Part shown: in pieces, positions 3,556 through 57,982 of the stretch
How the letters are laid out: each line of letters starts with the position of its first letter
How positions within the stretch are numbered: the stretch's first letter is position 1
Assembly: GCF_023028105.1 (NCBI RefSeq)
Contig: NZ_CP095493.1
Location: 1 to 64,000, forward strand
Direction of reading: 5' to 3'
Source: Halosolutus gelatinilyticus
GTDB taxonomy: Archaea > Halobacteriota > Halobacteria > Halobacteriales > Natrialbaceae
DNA length: 64,000 nt
Notes under the pieces: generated by a model
Databases searched by the model: none
The model's input: the letters and a program-made list of their open reading frames with translations, nothing else
Told to the model about the DNA's origin: nothing
Made by a program: the position numbers and the translations under genes

Positions 3556-3609
3556 CGTTACACTGGCCGAACTGTTTACACCGTTCACACAGTTTAAACC
3601 GTTTTCCGC
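3556..3609. repeat. Satellite array of 9-bp phased repeats (GTNTANAC type)
   Basis: Consecutive 9-mers starting at 3574 read GTTTACACC, GTTCACACA, GTTTAAACC, then a degenerate GTTTTCCGC. Weaker units precede them (GTTACACTG from 3557). The period and core are the same as in the large array at 18119-19072. The array sits between two convergent genes, so it is unlikely to be a promoter. It may be a secondary binding site of the same protein. Confidence 0.8.
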
Positions 3610-16710: not shown

Positions 16711-17226
16711 TTACTCCTCGCGGGCCGCGAGGATCTCCTCGATCAGCCCGTCGGTATCGGCGGCCGCGAGTCTGAACGCCGCATCGTAGAACTCCCGCCC
16801 GGTGAGATCCCGGACGTCGTGTCGGGTCCGCAGCTGTGCGTCTACCAACGCGCGCGCGTCTTCGAGGCCGTCGAGCGTGTCGGGGCGTACGTACACCGTC
16901 TTCTTGGTCGTCTCGTCGAACGCGAACGCGGTCGGATCGGTCCGACCGTCCTGTTCGGTCGTCGGCTCCGCCGGTTCGGCCGTCGGTTCGGTGTCGCCAT
17001 TCTCGGTCGCCGCGCCCGTCGCCGACGATTCCTCGACGGCGCCGTCCCTCGAAGTCGATCCGGACGCGGCGTCCGAATCGGCCGTCGGGGCGGCGTCAGC
17101 CGACACATTCGAATCCGCACCCGCGGTCGGGTCGGGGTCCGACCCCGAGTCGCCGCCTTCGTCGCCGTCCTCGTCGACCGCCTCGCTCAGCCCCGCGAAC
17201 CGGTTCTCGTCAGGCACCGTCGACAC
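16711..17226 (-). CDS. Acidic protein with ribbon-helix-helix-like C-terminus, putative ParA partner
   Basis: A 171-residue protein. Residues 1-105 are a low-complexity Asp/Glu/Ser/Ala tail, probably disordered. The C-terminal part fits a strand-helix-helix pattern: KKTVYVRP (108-115), helix TLDGLEDARALVDAQL (117-132), helix GREFYDAAFRLAA (143-155). This pattern resembles the MetJ/Arc fold used by small centromere-binding proteins of type Ib partition systems. The gene overlaps the 3' end of parA by 17 bp and is read in the same direction, so the two are likely translationally coupled. The role as DNA-binding partner of ParA at the 9-bp array is inference. Confidence 0.65.
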   Translation of the reverse strand: MSTVPDENRFAGLSEAVDEDGDEGGDSGSDPDPTAGADSNVSADAAPTADSDAASGSTSRDGAVEESSATGAATENGDTEPTAEPAEPTTEQDGRTDPTAFAFDETTKKTVYVRPDTLDGLEDARALVDAQLRTRHDVRDLTGREFYDAAFRLAAADTDGLIEEILAAREE

Positions 17227-18037
17227 CTCCGCGTTCGACGATCGCCGCCAGTGCGTCCAGCCGAACGAGCATGTCGCTTTCCGGATCGTACTCCGCGAGC
17301 GGGACTCCCTCGCGCCACGCGCGACGGAAGGCGATGCGTTCGCGAAGCCCCGGCCCCGGAGAGTCGGGATCGTCGAAGTGCGACGATCGGCCGAACGCCG
17401 GCAGATACTCGCCGAACTGGGATTCCTCCAGGTCGCCGATGATCCGCTTCTCCTCGTTGTCCCCCGACAGCGAGTTCGGGACGATCGCCAGGATGTCGAG
17501 GTCGATCTCCTTGCGGATCGGGCCGATCTGCTGGGTGTACATCCGTTCGAAGCCGCTGACGCTGGGTTCGCTCATCCGCAGCGGGACGATGACGTTCTGG
17601 GTCGAGATGAGCGACGCGTCGGCGAGCGGCCCCAGGTTCGGCGGCGAGTCGACGACGACGTAGTCGTAGGCCTCGCCCAGCACTGGATCGACGATCTCGT
17701 TTCTGATCCAGAGTTCGCCGAAGGTCGCGCTCCGGATGCTGTTTTCGACGCTATCCAGATCCTCGTGGGCCGGCAGCACGTCGAACGCCCCCGCCGATCG
17801 GACGACGTCACCGAGCGTGACGTCCGAGCCGTCCTCGAGGACGTCGCCGATGTGCAGGTCGCTCGTGTAGGCGTCGTGCAATCCGACGCCCTCCGTGGCG
17901 TTGCCCTGCTGATCGAGGTCGATCAGCAACACGTCGTTCGATCGGTTGGCGAGCCGTTCCGCGAGGTTGATCGCGATGGTCGTCTTGCCGACGCCGCCCT
18001 TCTGGAGGGCGACGCTGACGGCGCGTGGTGTCGTCAC
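17210..18037 (-). CDS. parA: ParA/Soj-type partition ATPase
   Basis: A 275-residue deviant-Walker ATPase. The P-loop KGGVGKTT is at residues 13-20, with the signature Lys at 13. DLDQQGN begins at 41 and the VVVDSPPN switch at 127-134. No extended N-terminal HTH is present, which is typical of type Ib or chromosomal Soj proteins. ParA binds DNA non-specifically in its ATP form and moves centromere complexes. It is the first gene of a leftward pair with the acidic RHH-like protein. The 1.1-kb non-coding region upstream is filled with 9-bp repeats, which makes it a segregation ATPase rather than a MinD-like protein. Confidence 0.9.
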   Translation of the reverse strand: MTTPRAVSVALQKGGVGKTTIAINLAERLANRSNDVLLIDLDQQGNATEGVGLHDAYTSDLHIGDVLEDGSDVTLGDVVRSAGAFDVLPAHEDLDSVENSIRSATFGELWIRNEIVDPVLGEAYDYVVVDSPPNLGPLADASLISTQNVIVPLRMSEPSVSGFERMYTQQIGPIRKEIDLDILAIVPNSLSGDNEEKRIIGDLEESQFGEYLPAFGRSSHFDDPDSPGPGLRERIAFRRAWREGVPLAEYDPESDMLVRLDALAAIVERGGVDGA

Positions 18038-18118
18038 GTGGGTTCACCTCCGTCGTCGCGTCGACGGTCGAGGCGGTGCGGACGTCCATCGCCGCGGACA
18101 CCGCGAGGACTTCGTTCG

Positions 18119-19072
18119 AAGTGTACACGGTGTAGACCGTTCGCACCGTGTGGAGCGTGTAGACGGCGAGCAACTCTCGAATCGTACCACGTCGAACCAC
18201 ACCGGCGCAGCGGAAGCTGCTGCGGCGAACGTGTAAACCGCTCGCACGTCTGAGACGGTTCGAACTGTGCACACAGTCTACGCGGTGTCGACAGTTCGGA
18301 CCTCCTGAAACGTCTGGGCGGTCGAAACGCACTGCACCGTCCGATCGATGCGGCCCGTTCGGACGCCCCGTGACGTTTCGACGGTTCGCGATGTTTACAC
18401 TGTGTGCACATTCTTCGACCCTCGCCCGTCGTTCGACCGGACGCGACGACTGACACGAACACTATCCCCGTGTCACGACTTAACAGTAGCGGAAACAGTC
18501 TACACGGCGTGGATTGTTTCGACTGTTGGCACAGTTCGAACAGTGTAGATAGTTTAGACCGTGTGGAAATCCAGTCAGATTCGTCCCGCAGTCGGCGAAT
18601 TGGGCGTCTCCGGTCGAAAGTTGGGTGATCGAGGCAGTTTGAGCGGTGTAGACGGCTGAAACAGTGTAAAATGTGTAAACTGTGTAAACAGTGCTAACGG
18701 TCTCGGCTGTTTCGATCGTCCGGGTCCGACGCTCGCCGTCTCACCGGCCGCGCTAAACGGTGCTAACTGTGTAGACCGTTCGAGCGTCTTACACAGTCTG
18801 AGCAGTTCAAAAAGTGTAGACATCGATCGGGAGGACCGATCGGAACGCAGCTGCGACAGCGTCCGCAAACGACGAGTTGTACACGGTGTAAACAGTGTAT
18901 AAAGTTCAAACCGTCCACACCGTCTTCTACATCGCCAGGCCGTGACGATTCCCGTGAAACGGACCATCGTCGATTACCATCGACCCTCATCTGGCAATTC
19001 GATCAGCCCGGTGACACGGTTGACACGGTCTACAAAGTTGATACGTTCTACACCGTGTAGACGGTCCTAAAT
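18119..19072. repeat. Large field of 9-bp phased repeats, putative centromere
   Basis: Eight blocks of 9-bp units with core GTNTANAC plus one base occupy most of the gap between parA and the HerA-like gene. Blocks lie at about 18119-18166, 18229-18345, 18375-18410, 18495-18569, 18633-18726, 18751-18822, 18877-18930 and 19010-19072. Exact cores occur, for example, at 18121, 18130, 18157, 18231, 18393, 18498, 18552, 18673, 18682, 18769, 18814, 18886 and 19055. Phase resets between blocks. The core is its own approximate reverse complement. No protein reading is plausible. Such runs of short phased repeats are typical of centromere sites bound by ribbon-helix-helix proteins. Confidence 0.85.
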
Positions 19073-19212
19073 GCGAGTACGCGATTCGGTCATGGCGACC
19101 CTCCTCTTCGGCGAAAGATCGGCGCGCTCGATCGGAGGCCAATATTCAAGGTCACGGGTTCGAAGTGTATGGATAGCATGAACGCGTCGGGCCAACCCGG
19201 GGTGGGACGTCG

Positions 19213-20871
19213 GTGAGCGACCAGCGGGAGATCCTCGTCGGAGAGACCGACGACGGATCGGAGCTGTGGCTTCCCGTCGTCGAACTCCTGACCGGACGGG
19301 GATTCGTCACCGGAAAATCGGGCTCCGGAAAGTCGAACACCGCGTCGGTCATCGCCGAAGAGCTCCTCGAAGCGGGATTCCCGCTGTTGATCGTTGACAC
19401 GGACGGCGAGTACTACGGGCTCAAAGAGGAGTACGAGATGCTCCACGCCGGCGCCGACGAGGAGTGTGACATCCAGATCGGGCCGGAACACGCCGAACAG
19501 ATGGCCGCGCTCGCGCTCGAGGAGAACGTCCCGGTCATCCTCGACGTCTCCGGCTACCTCGACGAGGACGTCGCCGACGAACTGATCCGGGAGATCGCGC
19601 GACAGCTATTCGTCAAGGAGAAGAAACTCAAGAAACCGTTCCTCCTCGTCGTCGAGGAGGTCCACGAGTACATCCCCGAGGGCGGCGGCGTCGGCGAGAC
19701 CGGAAACCTCCTGATCAAGATCGGGAAGCGAGGCCGAAAACACGGCCTCGGGATCTTGGGGATCAGCCAGCGGCCGGCCGACGTCAAGAAGGACTTCATC
19801 ACGCAGGCGAACTGGCTCGTCTGGCATCGCTTGACCTGGGACAACGACACGAAGGTCGTCGGTCGAATCATCGACACCGAGTACGCCGAACGCGTCTCCG
19901 ATCTGAACGACGGTCAAGCGTTCGTGCAAACCGACTGGACCGAGGTAAACGTCCGAAGGGTGCAGTTCCGCCGAAAGCGGACCTTCGACGCCGGCGCGAC
20001 ACCCGGACTCGACGACTTCGAACGACCCGAGCTCAAGTCCGTCTCGGACGCCCTCGTCGGCGACCTGCAGAAGATCTCGGAGCGAAAGGACCGGGAGGAA
20101 AACCGGATCGTCGAGCTCGAGAACGAACTCGAGAAGAAGGAAAAACGGATCGAGACGCTCGAGGACGAACTCGAATCCGCGCGGGACATCTCGAATGCGG
20201 CGAAGCAGATGGCCGACGCCCTGACCCGTCCCGAGACGATTCAGACCCAGCTTCCCGACGCCGACGAGAATCTGCGACGGCTCCACGACGAACTGGCCGA
20301 ACTCGAGGCCGAGCGCGCGGACCTCGAAACCGAACGCGAGAAACTCGAATCGCAACTCGCCGATCGAGGCGAACGAATCGACGACCTGGAAGCCGAGGTC
20401 GATCGACTGCGCGCGACGAACGAACGGTTACGCGATCGACTCGAGGCCGAAAAGACGGCGCAGGGATCGAACGAGGCCGACGACGCCATCGTCCAGCCGA
20501 CGGCCGACGGAGTCGAGATGGGATACACGCCCGACGACGGGGCGACCGATGTGGACATCCTCGTGGCGAATCACGACGACCGCGACGACGGCACGTTCGG
20601 ACTCGCGTGGCTCGACGAACGGATCGGGCGGGCCTGCGAGAACTCGCAGTGTTCGCCGCCGACCGCGAAGACGGTCGTGAGCGCCCTGGCCCGCGGCGGG
20701 CCGCTCGAAACGGAAGCCGTCGCGGCGGAGGTGGACCGATCGACGGTCGCCGTCCAGAGTCTCCTCTCGGAACTCCGCACCGAATCCGTGCTCGAACGGC
20801 CGGCCGAACGAACGTACGCGCTGAGCGATCGCGCGCGATCGGAGCTCCGGGCGGCGGTCGCGAACGACTGA
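19213..20871 (+). CDS. HerA/DUF87-type ATPase with coiled coil and C-terminal winged helix
   Basis: A 552-residue protein starting from GTG at 19213. An ATPase core comes first: Walker A GKSGSGKS at 34-41, Walker B-like LLVVEEVHEY near 145-155, and ISQRPADVKK near 180-195. This is the HerA/FtsK-related pumping-ATPase pattern. A coiled coil follows from about 285 to 425 (KEKRIETLEDELE type heptads). A C-terminal winged-helix-like domain follows (TAKTVVSALARGGPLETEAVAAEVDRSTVAVQ in shortened form, about 475-545). Canonical HerA pairs with NurA nuclease, which is absent here. Divergence from parA across the repeat field suggests a DNA-segregation or translocation role, which is inference. Confidence 0.8.
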   Translation: MSDQREILVGETDDGSELWLPVVELLTGRGFVTGKSGSGKSNTASVIAEELLEAGFPLLIVDTDGEYYGLKEEYEMLHAGADEECDIQIGPEHAEQMAALALEENVPVILDVSGYLDEDVADELIREIARQLFVKEKKLKKPFLLVVEEVHEYIPEGGGVGETGNLLIKIGKRGRKHGLGILGISQRPADVKKDFITQANWLVWHRLTWDNDTKVVGRIIDTEYAERVSDLNDGQAFVQTDWTEVNVRRVQFRRKRTFDAGATPGLDDFERPELKSVSDALVGDLQKISERKDREENRIVELENELEKKEKRIETLEDELESARDISNAAKQMADALTRPETIQTQLPDADENLRRLHDELAELEAERADLETEREKLESQLADRGERIDDLEAEVDRLRATNERLRDRLEAEKTAQGSNEADDAIVQPTADGVEMGYTPDDGATDVDILVANHDDRDDGTFGLAWLDERIGRACENSQCSPPTAKTVVSALARGGPLETEAVAAEVDRSTVAVQSLLSELRTESVLERPAERTYALSDRARSELRAAVAND

Positions 20872-37051: not shown

Positions 37052-37338
37052 ACTCAGCACTTATTAACACCTGTACTAGTATTGATCCACTATGGAGAAC
37101 TTCAGAGTTGTACTAGGAAGAACTCCGTAGAGCGGAAGTTATCGACAGCGAGGGACGATCCCGACGGCCGATTGGACGCCTCCGACAGCGTGTCGATCGT
37201 CTGCGTGCCGCCGATCGATCGATACACTGGATTCAGCTACCTACCGGATTCAGCTACCGAAGTCTAGCAGTGGAGCCCCTCGACATCGGCGGCCCGAAAT
37301 CCAGTGATCCTGGCTCGACCGATTCCTGGCGTCCGACC

Positions 37339-38127
37339 ACACCGGGTTTCCGGTGAATCGGACCGCTTTACCCACCAGAGACCCGTCGCCGTAGCTTCGA
37401 TACCACTGGAGCTTCGATGCCGCTATAGATTCGGTGACGTTGTAGATTCGTCGCCGCCGATCGCCGCCGTCGCGTTTCGAGAGGGACTGGATTGCGATCG
37501 GAGACGACTGCACTCGCACACCCGGTTTCCGGTGAAGACATGGGTGGGCCGGTGACATCCCACACCGTATTTCCGGTGAAAATGCTTGTAGAGTGAGCTG
37601 GTGAGGGGTGAAAACGTCGCGAATTCCTCGGAGAAATACGCGAACGCGCTACTCGATGCGAAGATCGATGGTACTGACGGTACGACGATCGACGGTGCTG
37701 ACGCCGGCGAACGCTCCACTGGTGTTGACGAACGCTCGATCGGCTCATGGTAGATCAGAGAAGGAGAGCCTCCAGTAGAGACACACCGTATTTCCGGTGA
37801 ACGCCGCATTTTCGACGTGAAACGCCGACCAATAACGGCGGTCACACACACACACACCAAGTTTCCGGTGAAACCAGGAAAGGGATCTCTCTTGGAGAGG
37901 ATAGTGAGAGCGGAGTGAGGCGATGAGGGCGAACTCTCCGGAAAACGAAGACGGCGTCTGAAAAAGATGAAGGGGTCTGAAAGAGGAGGGGCCAAAAGCA
38001 CAGGAAAAATAGAGAAAGCCGGAACAGGAGTGCTGGAAGGGGGTGATCGGACCTATTGAATGATCGAATCGAACTGAAGACGGAATGCCCTTCGAACGGA
38101 AGACACGCACACCGGGTTTCCGGTGAA
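37339..38127 (+). repeat. Six forward origin-recognition-box-like repeats
   Basis: 19-mers with consensus ACACCGGGTTTCCGGTGAA lie at 37339-37357, 37518-37536, 37562-37580, 37783-37801, 37854-37872 and 38109-38127. Variants replace GGG by CGG, GTA or AAG. Each has an inner dyad CACCG/CGGTG. All six share orientation. Confidence 0.85.
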
Positions 38128-38367
38128 ACACGTGAACACAGCAACGCGTGACCGCAGAACGATGAGGTGATCTACTGGTCATGGGCGGCTCCTGACCGGT
38201 CCTAACCGCGGTATGACCGGTTTCAACCATGGTACTGGCTGCGAACGCCACCGATCGTAACACCGGTCAGCCATTGCGCACAGTCATAGTCAACACTAAA
38301 TACTAGCAGCGCAAAAAGTCCATTGAGTAGATCGACAAAAAGAAAGTCGACTCTGTCGACAGCTGTC

Positions 38368-38817
38368 TTCACCGGAAATCGCCTTGTCTACTCAAGCAAA
38401 AGATCACCTCGAATTAGCCTCCCCGCACTGGTTTCCCGAATCGATCGCTCGGTAGACCGCTTCTTTGAATCTTTCTTTGGACCGTTTTGGGGCCCAATTG
38501 AGCCGATTGTAGAGTTCGATCGAACCGATCACAGAGTTCGGTTGAGTCATCCCTCTAGCATCTGTGTTGATCCTCGAACGATCTGATCGGCCCACACCGC
38601 ATTTCCGGTGAACCGCAACCCCCGCTTCAACTGCACCATCCCCACCTTCACCCCCATTTCACCGGAAACTCGGTGTGTGTGTCCTCCACTTCTCCCATCG
38701 CCGATCGAAACGCCTCCAGTCTTCTCGAGAAGCCATCTCTCGGGTGAATTTCACCTGCTCACCGGTTCCGGAGTTTCGATACCAAACAGTAAAGACGTTT
38801 CACCGGAAACGTGGTGT
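38368..38817. repeat. Four ORB-like repeats of mixed orientation next to orc1/cdc6
   Basis: Reversed elements lie at 38368-38387 (degenerate), 38658-38676 and 38799-38817; a forward one lies at 38594-38612. The last (TTCACCGGAAACGTGGTGT) ends 8 bp before the orc1/cdc6 ATG, where the core promoter and start region should be, which suggests autoregulation. Confidence 0.8.
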
Positions 38818-38825
38818 CTACAACT

Positions 38826-40046
38826 ATGTCGAGTTCCGGCGACGATCTCTTCACTCGAGATGATCCGATATTCGAAAACAAGGAGCTGCTCGAGATCAAT
38901 CATCTGCCCGAGGAAGGTCGCATCGTCGGCCGGGACGACGAGATCTCCGATCTCGCGAACGCGGTCAATCCGGCGATTTTCGGCCAGAGTCCGAGCAATC
39001 TGCTCATCTACGGGAAGACCGGGACCGGCAAATCCCTCTGTGCAAAGCACATTTCCGAGCGGCTCATCCGCGTGGCGAAAGAAGAGGGCGTCACCGCGGA
39101 TTTCGCCTACGTCGACTGCGCTCAGGACAGCACCGAAACGCAGGCCGTCCAGACGATCGCGTACTCGCTGAACGATTCGGACGTCACCGACGTCAAGATT
39201 CCGGACAAGGGATTGAGTACGTCGACGTACTACAAACGGCTCTGGAACGTCCTCGATTCGCAGTACGATGTCGTCCTGATAATCCTGGATGAGGTCGACA
39301 AACTCGACGACGACGACATTCTGATGCAACTCTCGCGGGCGGGCGAGGCGGGCAAACTCGACCACTGCAAGATCGGCGTCATCGGAATCAGTAACAAGAT
39401 CAAGTACAAGGATCGAATGGACGAGCGGGTCAAATCGAGCCTCTGCGAGCGGGAGTTCGTCTTTCCGCCGTACGACGCGAATCAGCTCCGAGACATCATG
39501 GAGGCGCGCAGCGATGCGTTCAAAGACGGCGTACTCGATCCGTCAGTAATTCCTCGCGCGGCCGCGCTCGCCGCGCGGGAACACGGGGACGCGCGGAAGG
39601 CGATCGACATCCTCCGGTACGCCGGGGAGATCGCCCAGTCGAACGGCAGCGATCGCGTTCGCGAGGAGTTCGTCGTTCAGGCGCGGGAACGGGCCGAGAC
39701 GGATCGGTTCCGGGAGCTCATCCGCGGTTCGACGCCACACTCCCGGTACGTGTTGCAGGCACTGGCCGTGCTCTCGCTGAACACCCCGAACGAGGACGGC
39801 TTCAGGACGACGCGCATCTACGACGTGTACGAGGAGATCTGTCGGCAGGAGGGGTCGGATTCACTTTCCCTCCGTCGCGTTCGTGACCTCCTGAAGGAAC
39901 ACGCGTTCCTCGACATTATCGAACAGTCCCGTCAGAGCGGCGGCAGCGCGGAGGGCAGCTACACCGAGCACCAACTTCTCGAAGATCCGGACGTCGTTCG
40001 GAAAGTCCTGGTGGAGACGGTCCAATCCGAACCCGCCGATTCGTGA
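38826..40046 (+). CDS. orc1/cdc6: Orc1/Cdc6 replication initiator
   Basis: A 406-residue AAA+ initiator starting MSSSGDDLF; the GTG at 38811 would overlap an ORB and is rejected. Walker A GKTGTGKS lies near 63-70, Walker B LIILDEVDKLDDDD near 150-163, and sensor-1 IGISNK near 200. The C-terminal winged helix (about 310-400) recognises ORB elements. Flanking ORB-like repeats on both sides make this the cognate origin protein. Haloarchaea carry several paralogs, each tied to its own origin, so number assignment is not attempted. Binding autoregulation is likely from the ORB 8 bp upstream. Confidence 0.95.
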   Translation: MSSSGDDLFTRDDPIFENKELLEINHLPEEGRIVGRDDEISDLANAVNPAIFGQSPSNLLIYGKTGTGKSLCAKHISERLIRVAKEEGVTADFAYVDCAQDSTETQAVQTIAYSLNDSDVTDVKIPDKGLSTSTYYKRLWNVLDSQYDVVLIILDEVDKLDDDDILMQLSRAGEAGKLDHCKIGVIGISNKIKYKDRMDERVKSSLCEREFVFPPYDANQLRDIMEARSDAFKDGVLDPSVIPRAAALAAREHGDARKAIDILRYAGEIAQSNGSDRVREEFVVQARERAETDRFRELIRGSTPHSRYVLQALAVLSLNTPNEDGFRTTRIYDVYEEICRQEGSDSLSLRRVRDLLKEHAFLDIIEQSRQSGGSAEGSYTEHQLLEDPDVVRKVLVETVQSEPADS

Positions 40047-40259
40047 CCTCACGTTCGTGACCCCACGGCCTACGTGTTCGACTTGCAATCAATATTTCCT
40101 CTCGTGTTTGCTACTCGTTCTATACCCGGTCGTGTCCTCACTCCCCCTTCGTATCCTCGCTTCCCGTTACCGACGGTCTTTGCGCGACCTGTCCTCCGAT
40201 CGTCGACAAGATCTCTCGCTTCGCGATGTCGACGACTCCTGCTCCGCGATCCGAGTTCG

Positions 40260-40984
40260 TTCACCAGAAACCCGGTGTCCCGAAGCCGTCCACGGATGCC
40301 GGTTTCACCAGAAATTCGGTGAAGGCGGTCGATTTGTGACGTAGTCGTCCGCATTCGCGCTCGAGCGGAGCCAGTGCCGGTGAGGTCATCGGAAACCCGG
40401 TGTGCGATCCGCCGGTTTTCATCGGAAGCCCGGTGTCCCGCCGTCGTGTGGATGCCGAACGGACGGTCCCGTCGCAACCGACGAGGAGACGGCTTCGTTG
40501 TAGTCGAAGAGGAGATGCCTTCGTTGTAGCCGATACGAGTCTTCGTCGTAGCCGACGAGTAGACGTCTTTGTTGCGGCTGGCGAAGAGACGGTCTCATCG
40601 CAGTCGTCGATCGCCCGTCGAATCGCCGTGTTCCCGATAGGCCGATCGTCGATCCGATCGGGGATCGGTCAGTCGGTATTCTATGCGGACTAACTACTGA
40701 TTCCAAATAGAATCGATAGAATTTCGACACGATCGCTGCCGATCTATTTGAGGCCCGAATGCGTCGCGACGTCCGGGCTCGGCTGGCACGTTTCACCGGA
40801 AGTCCGGTGTCTCACTTCACACCACGTGTCGGATCGGTGAGGTTCGGCGAACTGGACGATACTGGGCGTCGATTCCCGAGTGTCGGTGATCGGTGATGGC
40901 TGGTGTCGTCGTCGATCGGTGATGACCGGTATCGTTTACCGGAACGACCGCTCGATCGGCGGGATTTCACCGGAAAGGCGGTGT
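40260..40984 (-). repeat. Six reversed ORB-like repeats downstream of orc1/cdc6
   Basis: Elements lie at 40260-40278, 40304-40322, 40385-40403, 40418-40436, 40792-40810 and 40966-40984. They follow the reversed consensus TTCACCGGAAACCCGGTGT. The first two have CCAG in place of CCGG and the next two ATCGG in place of ACCGG, so the left four are diverged; the last two are near consensus. Confidence 0.8.
40474..40609. repeat. Degenerate 26-bp tandem repeat
   Basis: Units begin about every 26 bp at 40474, 40500, 40526 (short, 22 bp), 40548, 40574 and 40600. They share a start like GTAGCCGA and an end like CTTCGTT. The block sits between ORB elements, which may point to an origin-associated feature. 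Confidence 0.6.
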
Positions 40985-57586: not shown

Positions 57587-57982
57587 GCGAACCCCTTCTG
57601 AGTGCCCATAGTTAAAATCCAACCAAGCAATGGCGGATAATCAGTGCATTATGCAAGAAGTGAGCAAATTACTATAAAAGCATCTATCAAATATCGTGAA
57701 AGACTCGAAAGTATATACAAACGAATCCGGTGCTGGGCCCCTCGGAGAGCCGTCGGGAGGTCAGCGCCGAACGGCGTCCATCGAGCGACGCGGACCGTCA
57801 CGTACGATTCGCACAGCGTAGACCGTTTACGGCGTCTCCGTTCAGCGCGGTGTACAGCACCGGTCGGAAGCACCGAACGGGTCGATCGCCGACGAAACCG
57901 CCGAGCACGGCTACCGAACTCGAGCGAGCGAACCCGGCTGCGATCGCCGGCCTGGGGAGATCAGCGGTCGACGTGCGGGTCG
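57587..57982. other. Intergenic region between the halocyanin-like and HTH genes
   Basis: The left part (57600-57725) is AT-rich and holds the leftward halocyanin promoter region. No gene is recognised. Confidence 0.4.

Follow-up and report, generated by a model that had tools for sequence, protein, structure and literature searches.

The first 64,000 nucleotides of a 200,542-bp contig (NZ_CP095493.1, here C3) of the haloarchaeon Halosolutus gelatinilyticus, referred to below as the window, carry parA, a small partner gene and a non-coding array of short repeats in 9-bp register; together these are probably a ParA-partner-parS partition (par) system of a secondary replicon of ~200 kb with a replicon-specific centromere. 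The genome totals 4.76 Mb in four contigs. A survey of related loci supports a recurring cassette in which parA overlaps a small partner gene and has a phased array upstream of it; unit sequences vary with the ParA/partner clade, whereas the 9-bp pitch is kept. An earlier note on this DNA, written from the sequence alone, had proposed a segregation system here and gave the genes the coordinates that are kept below.

17210..18037, minus strand: parA, encoding a ParA-family ATPase of 275 amino acids (aa) (Pfam AAA_31, 3e-34; nearest solved structures Soj/ParA)
16711..17226, minus strand: partner gene, encoding a putative centromere-binding protein of 171 aa; overlaps the 3' end of parA and lies directly downstream of it
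18042..19074, no strand: putative centromere (parS-like) array with units GTNYRNAC+N, defined by autocorrelation, hidden Markov model (HMM) and pattern counts
18042-18185, 18228-18416, 18491-18571, 18630-18719, 18753-18824, 18847-18927 and 19016 to about 19074: seven array blocks

The 9-bp array

The array field (18042-19074) is non-coding; it is situated immediately upstream of the overlapping parA and partner genes. Phased 9-bp repeats do occur in this gap as the earlier note claimed, and the comparison with shuffled DNA that it proposed gives a clear peak at lag 9; within 18100-19080 the lag-9 identity is 0.407, whereas dinucleotide shuffles give 0.253 ± 0.015 (z 10.6) and do not exceed 0.32 in any of 2000 cases. 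Further peaks are seen at lag 18 (z 9.9), lag 27 and lag 36 (z 6.7). Identity at lags 3 and 6 stays at background over the same positions, so codon periodicity was rejected as the source of the signal.

Each unit consists of the pseudo-palindromic 8-mer GTNYRNAC and a single free base. Exact GTNYRNAC occurs 24 times in 18042-19074, where 0.9 are expected and shuffles reach a maximum of 4 (n=300); among 55 spacings between successive units 30 are exactly 9 bp and nine are 18 bp. Over the 1000 bp that precede parA, a cyclic HMM of nine states assigns 69% to the array, as ~76 units in seven blocks; codon-like CGW repeats at some loci misled an unconstrained expectation maximization on 9-mers, and the phased HMM was used in its place. 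The codon-corrected period-9 score of the array (0.193) is the highest on the contig, the next best elsewhere being 0.106. The 9-bp register stands as first described; the count of eight blocks falls to seven by HMM, and the core first written as GTNTANAC gives way to a more degenerate unit.

ParA and the partner protein

ParA has a deviant Walker A motif (KGGVGKT, residues 13-19), an AAA_31 match that begins at residue 5 and no N-terminal helix-turn-helix (HTH). The partner likely starts at 17217, which gives the N-terminus M/V-P-[DE]-[DE]-NRFAGL; the protein consists of a conserved N-terminal motif (NRFAGL in the clade of the window, NPFDDL or DPFADL in other clades), a variable acidic linker or tail, and a conserved C-terminal domain of ~65-75 aa. 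Searches of Pfam, NCBIfam, PHROG and PDB sequences found no relative of the partner, and no match to a ParB N-domain/CTPase was found in Pfam, NCBIfam or PHROG. AlphaFold models of the full-length protein and of the C-terminal domain show the order strand-helix-helix at a predicted local distance difference test (pLDDT) of 52-55, too poor for a fold call; Foldseek gave zero matches with this low-confidence model of the C-terminal domain. The partner is the putative DNA-binding protein of the array.

The cassette in other haloarchaea

Of 149 related genomes, 85 have ParA relatives (E <= 1e-30), spread over 37 of 59 genera, and 74 match the partner profile; for 86 of the 94 partner matches (E < 1e-10), a listed ParA is no more than 250 bp away. 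With a query from the clade of the window, a tblastn search of a plasmid collection yields 40 records with the partner, and with a query from a second clade it yields 97, the homologues being mostly annotated as 'hypothetical protein'. Scans of viral contigs returned three distant ParA loci and no partner; a search of genome contigs with a wide ParA alignment gave mostly bacterial ParA among the matches listed.

Repeat periods were compared at 62 ParA loci: 40 from related genomes, five from genome contigs, 16 from named plasmids or viruses, and the window. The set holds a few duplicates (for example, L074 and L201 are both pHTUR04; pHS2 and pNRC100 share a locus). The best period near parA (5-17 compared) is 9 at 55 loci, and a strong array is present near parA at 44 of the 62, whereas one of 121 control segments taken from these contigs has one (Fisher P 1.5e-26; this value and the one below ignore shared ancestry and duplicates). 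At 41 of these 44 loci the array peaks at a distance of 70-1050 bp upstream of parA. Arrays occur at 44 of the 57 loci with an adjacent partner and at none of the five where no partner was found (P 0.001); the array therefore tracks the partner and not ParA alone, as expected for a binding site of the partner. Close relatives, where the earlier note had suggested looking, likewise carry the array beside parA, and the cassette recurs on many haloarchaeal replicons.

At L093-L096, a ParA clade of ~53% identity has neither an adjacent partner nor a 9-bp array.

Several results weigh against a plasmid partition system built on this array. Related loci are not independent samples, and 13 of the 57 partner-bearing loci fall below the array threshold, in some cases owing to contig ends or short arrays. 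The ribbon-helix-helix (RHH) fold that the earlier note had suspected is not confirmed by any match in Pfam, NCBIfam, PDB or Foldseek, leaving only the strand-helix-helix order at the end of the partner. The ParA, partner and 9-bp array of the second clade are found on chromosome-sized contigs at L099 (G022:C1), L102 (G111:C1) and L103 (G110:C1), so the par system is not strictly plasmid-borne; these loci may be either integrated plasmids or true chromosomal par loci.

Unit sequence and replicon specificity

The model of the window unit, GTNYRNAC+N, matches arrays of the same ParA clade down to 67% ParA identity, including that of Haloferax pHME505. Other clades have other units: ACCTATTr on contig C2, which carries a second ParA of H. 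gelatinilyticus; CTATTCAT on pHS2 and pNRC100; and CTAAGKTAs on pNMAG02. A neutral expansion of low-complexity repeats, with no bound protein, hardly accounts for this pattern and is given almost no credence; simple repeats can expand in intergenic DNA, however the 9-bp pitch is conserved across families despite the different unit sequences, unit specificity is kept between genera within one ParA clade over the range of identity given above, and linkage to parA and the partner is strong.

Within the genome of H. gelatinilyticus, specificity was examined by pattern search. Three GTNYRNAC units in a row (<=1 mismatch) occur at 11 sites in the 4.76 Mb, all 11 on C3, and three TAGGT units (<=1 mismatch) at five sites, all five on C2. 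In each of four cells, with nine replicons or proviruses between them, models trained on an array match that array and not the co-resident ones; the sole exception is the pHTUR02 model, which gives a weak one-way score on pHTUR03. That co-resident arrays do not cross-match is what partition incompatibility would demand.

Arrays inside the partner gene of haloviruses and related loci

In phiCh1 (L214, 3758-4156), phiH1 (L215, 3767-4168) and the two related loci L124 and L107 a 9-bp array is part of the partner gene itself, in the form of in-frame three-codon repeats. Serine codon use shifts between the repeat region and elsewhere in the same loci: in L124 TCA accounts for 6 of 7 in the repeats and 0 of 16 outside them (P 7e-5), in L107 TCC for 9 of 14 and 3 of 19, respectively (P 0.006), and in phiCh1 TCA for 7 of 13 and 1 of 8 (P 0.07), the P values being indicative because the codon for each gene was picked after the repeats had been seen. 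The enrichment of serine codons that are otherwise rare in those loci suggests selection on the DNA and a centromere written inside coding sequence. Similarity of the haloviral partners to the C-terminal stretch is weak (hhalign E 0.0009, 56 columns, at a probability of only 24%).

Other elements of the repeat and a possible operator role

Two further features were located, one within the array field and one distant from it.

18477..18499, minus strand: conserved non-repeat element within the array field, TTTCCGCTACTGTTAAGT in parA orientation; its CTGTTAAG core is conserved in the close clade
3559..3604, no strand: second, intergenic cluster of ~5 units of the window's 9-bp repeat, by position weight matrix (PWM) score and exact pattern match

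Counting the window, 18 close-clade entries have the CTGTTAAG core at 380-560 bp upstream of parA; they represent 17 distinct loci, as L074 and L201 are the same plasmid. The element is possibly a promoter, a leader start or a site for another protein. The cluster at 3559-3604 has a PWM triple-unit score of 32.4 against at most 18.8 in 200-kb simulations, a weak satellite cluster of the same unit lies at 57804-57835, and C2 has satellites of its own unit away from parA (C2:526713, C2:546069).

These elements bear on whether the array is only an operator, at whose many sites the partner or ParA would bind for autoregulation and repress the divergent promoters of parA and the neighbouring HerA-like gene. 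The array is placed exactly between parA and the divergent gene, it encloses a promoter-like conserved element, and a small satellite cluster could be a further operator; yet ~76 units over 1 kb far exceed the needs of repression, the replicon-specific units of co-resident replicons suit incompatibility better, satellites are found away from parA on both C3 (3559-3604) and C2, and the array of the phiCh1/phiH1 type sits inside the partner gene. A purely operator function is considered unlikely, and a centromere remains the preferred reading of the array.

Replication origin and genomic setting

C3 encodes two complete Orc1/Cdc6 proteins, at 38868-39977 and 121235-122332, of which the first is adjoined by an AT-richer region.

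38868..39977, plus strand: Orc1/Cdc6 initiator of the same replicon (TIGR02928, 442.5 bits), outside the par locus
37333..38817, no strand: replication origin repeats of the origin recognition box (ORB) type, TTTCACCGGAAAC; most matches within 37.3-41.0 kb, flanking Orc1/Cdc6

Many copies of TTTCACCGGAAAC, which we take to be the haloarchaeal ORB origin motif, lie in this region; with <=2 mismatches there are 17 matches in the window where 1.2 are expected, most of them at 37.3-41.0 kb; the ORB-type origin region around the Orc1/Cdc6 gene extends over 37333-40977. The 9-bp array is not that origin, because the Orc1/Cdc6 gene and ORB origin of C3 carry another motif and lie 19 kb away. That the repeats are replication iterons and no centromere is a reading that would draw on the frequency of such arrays at plasmid origins, and on the orc1/cdc6 genes found near parA on the fetched Haloferax plasmids; it is judged very improbable, since the window has an ORB-type origin of a different motif beside its Orc1/Cdc6, C3 has a second Orc1/Cdc6 at 121 kb, and the array tracks the partner of parA and not a Rep gene. 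Iterons were rejected with the origin found elsewhere on C3.

The orthologous locus is present on complete circular plasmids, e.g. pHTUR04 of Haloterrigena turkmenica, where the gene order is HerA-like, parA, hypothetical protein, helicase. A genome of the same genus, a single contig of 5.06 Mb, keeps the stretch GlmS-GlmU-HerA (L241, G001:C1:2750000-2769000) without XPB and the array, and neither ParA nor the partner was found in that genome, as would be the case had par been lost following fusion with the chromosome.

The HerA-like neighbour

19213..20871, plus strand: HerA-like ATPase with coiled coil (DUF87, 2e-11), the divergent neighbour of parA

The earlier note had offered this ATPase as a possible third component, which with ParA and the partner would make up a three-component segregation machine. 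In Natrialbaceae replicons sequenced far enough the gene does diverge from parA across the array, and among the fetched loci a par cassette between XPB and HerA is confined to Natrialbaceae replicons; the HerA-like protein is nevertheless present in 59 of 61 genomes, and at 8 of 30 loci examined XPB lies directly upstream of HerA with no par between. Furthermore, parA and the array occur without HerA within the fetched few kb in L088-L092, Haloferax, Halobacterium and the second clade, and the HerA promoter region, CTTGAATATTGGCCTC, is found as a variant also in the array-less relative L009. Outside Natrialbaceae replicons the neighbours of par at the fetched loci are msrA/surE/orc1 or AbiEi/AbiEii genes. 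The proposal was dropped as very improbable; the HerA-like ATPase, a chromosomal XPB-HerA neighbour missing at many arrays, probably stands outside the par system.

Proposed mechanism and significance

The C-terminal domain of the partner would bind the units GTNYRNAC+N, probably as dimers, with one per unit or unit pair; coating of the array at 9-bp pitch would then produce a phased nucleoprotein complex, the centromere. The N-terminal peptide (NRFAGL, NPFDDL or DPFADL), carried on an acidic disordered tail, could reach ParA-ATP on the nucleoid and trigger its ATPase, by which sister replicons would be moved apart. The proposal of coating and N-terminal activation of ParA takes pSM19035 as its analogue; there the RHH-ParB requires four or more contiguous heptads to activate ParA (PMC9499535). 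The array would probably also autoregulate parA. Co-divergence of the unit sequence with the partner, at a pitch that is kept, may allow several plasmids to share a cell without partition incompatibility.

A broader proposal, which could prove right or wrong with about equal probability, is that these loci form a widespread class of archaeal centromeres set by pitch and not by sequence. An undescribed DNA-binding family would polymerise at a fixed 9-bp pitch, and the unit word would change with each partner lineage and so act as an incompatibility code between megaplasmids of one cell. Because 9 bp equal three codons, haloviruses could carry the array within the coding sequence of the partner.

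The centromeres of archaeal plasmids and chromosomes have been named as an outstanding question by a review on genome segregation in archaea (PMC5120986). The arrays provide concrete centromere candidates for haloarchaea, including pHME505 (Haloferax mediterranei) and pNRC100 (Halobacterium); if confirmed, they would help to explain the upkeep of several megaplasmids per haloarchaeal cell, underpin incompatibility groups and stable vectors, and assign a role to a 'hypothetical protein' that occurs on many plasmids. The earlier note knew of no described haloarchaeal centromere of this kind, and none was found in the open-access literature that was searched.

Comparison with known partition systems

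The delta-omega-parS system of pSM19035 has an RHH-type ParB and contiguous 7-bp heptads, at least four of which must be contiguous to activate ParA (PMC9499535). The window locus resembles it in a ParA without HTH, a small non-HTH partner and short contiguous phased repeats beside the par genes; it differs in its 9-bp pitch, its many more units (~76), the palindromic unit, a partner that is not recognisably RHH and has a long acidic tail, its archaeal host and a unit that varies between replicons. The period here is 9, and period 7 is at background.

SegAB of the Sulfolobales features an RHH protein, SegB, and TCTAGASTCTAGA sites, single 13-bp palindromes scattered over the chromosome (PMC12284271). 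An archaeal ParA-like ATPase, a small partner downstream and sites upstream of the operon are common to the two, SegB being a site-specific DNA-binding protein; however, the present locus has a dense 9-bp array on a secondary replicon in place of scattered palindromes. SegB-type sites were rejected, as TCTAGASTCTAGA with <=3 mismatches is not above chance (3 matches against 7.5 expected, none in the array). The AspA-ParB-ParA system of the Sulfolobus plasmid pNOB8, which has three genes and a ParB/CenpA-like protein (PMC5120986), is likewise an archaeal plasmid partition cassette with ParA, whereas here there are two genes and a tandem 9-bp array, and the partner matches no known family.

A further likeness is to the ParA loci of pNRC100, pHS2, pHME505 and phiH1, which have the same kind of ParA, an adjacent partner and, as found here, a 9-bp array; they differ in their unit sequences, and the array of the phiH1/phiCh1 type is within the partner gene. 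These haloarchaeal ParA proteins are annotated, and no study of their centromeres was found. The partner is without a ParB-type match, unlike the HTH-ParB/parS systems (type Ia or chromosomal). The small ParA with deviant Walker A and no N-terminal HTH, the small gene directly downstream of parA whose product would bind DNA, and the short tandem repeats upstream of the operon that would function as the centromere are all features of type Ib. Partition by ParA is already known; the putative novelty of this system is an undescribed partner family joined to a candidate centromere of 9-bp pitch.

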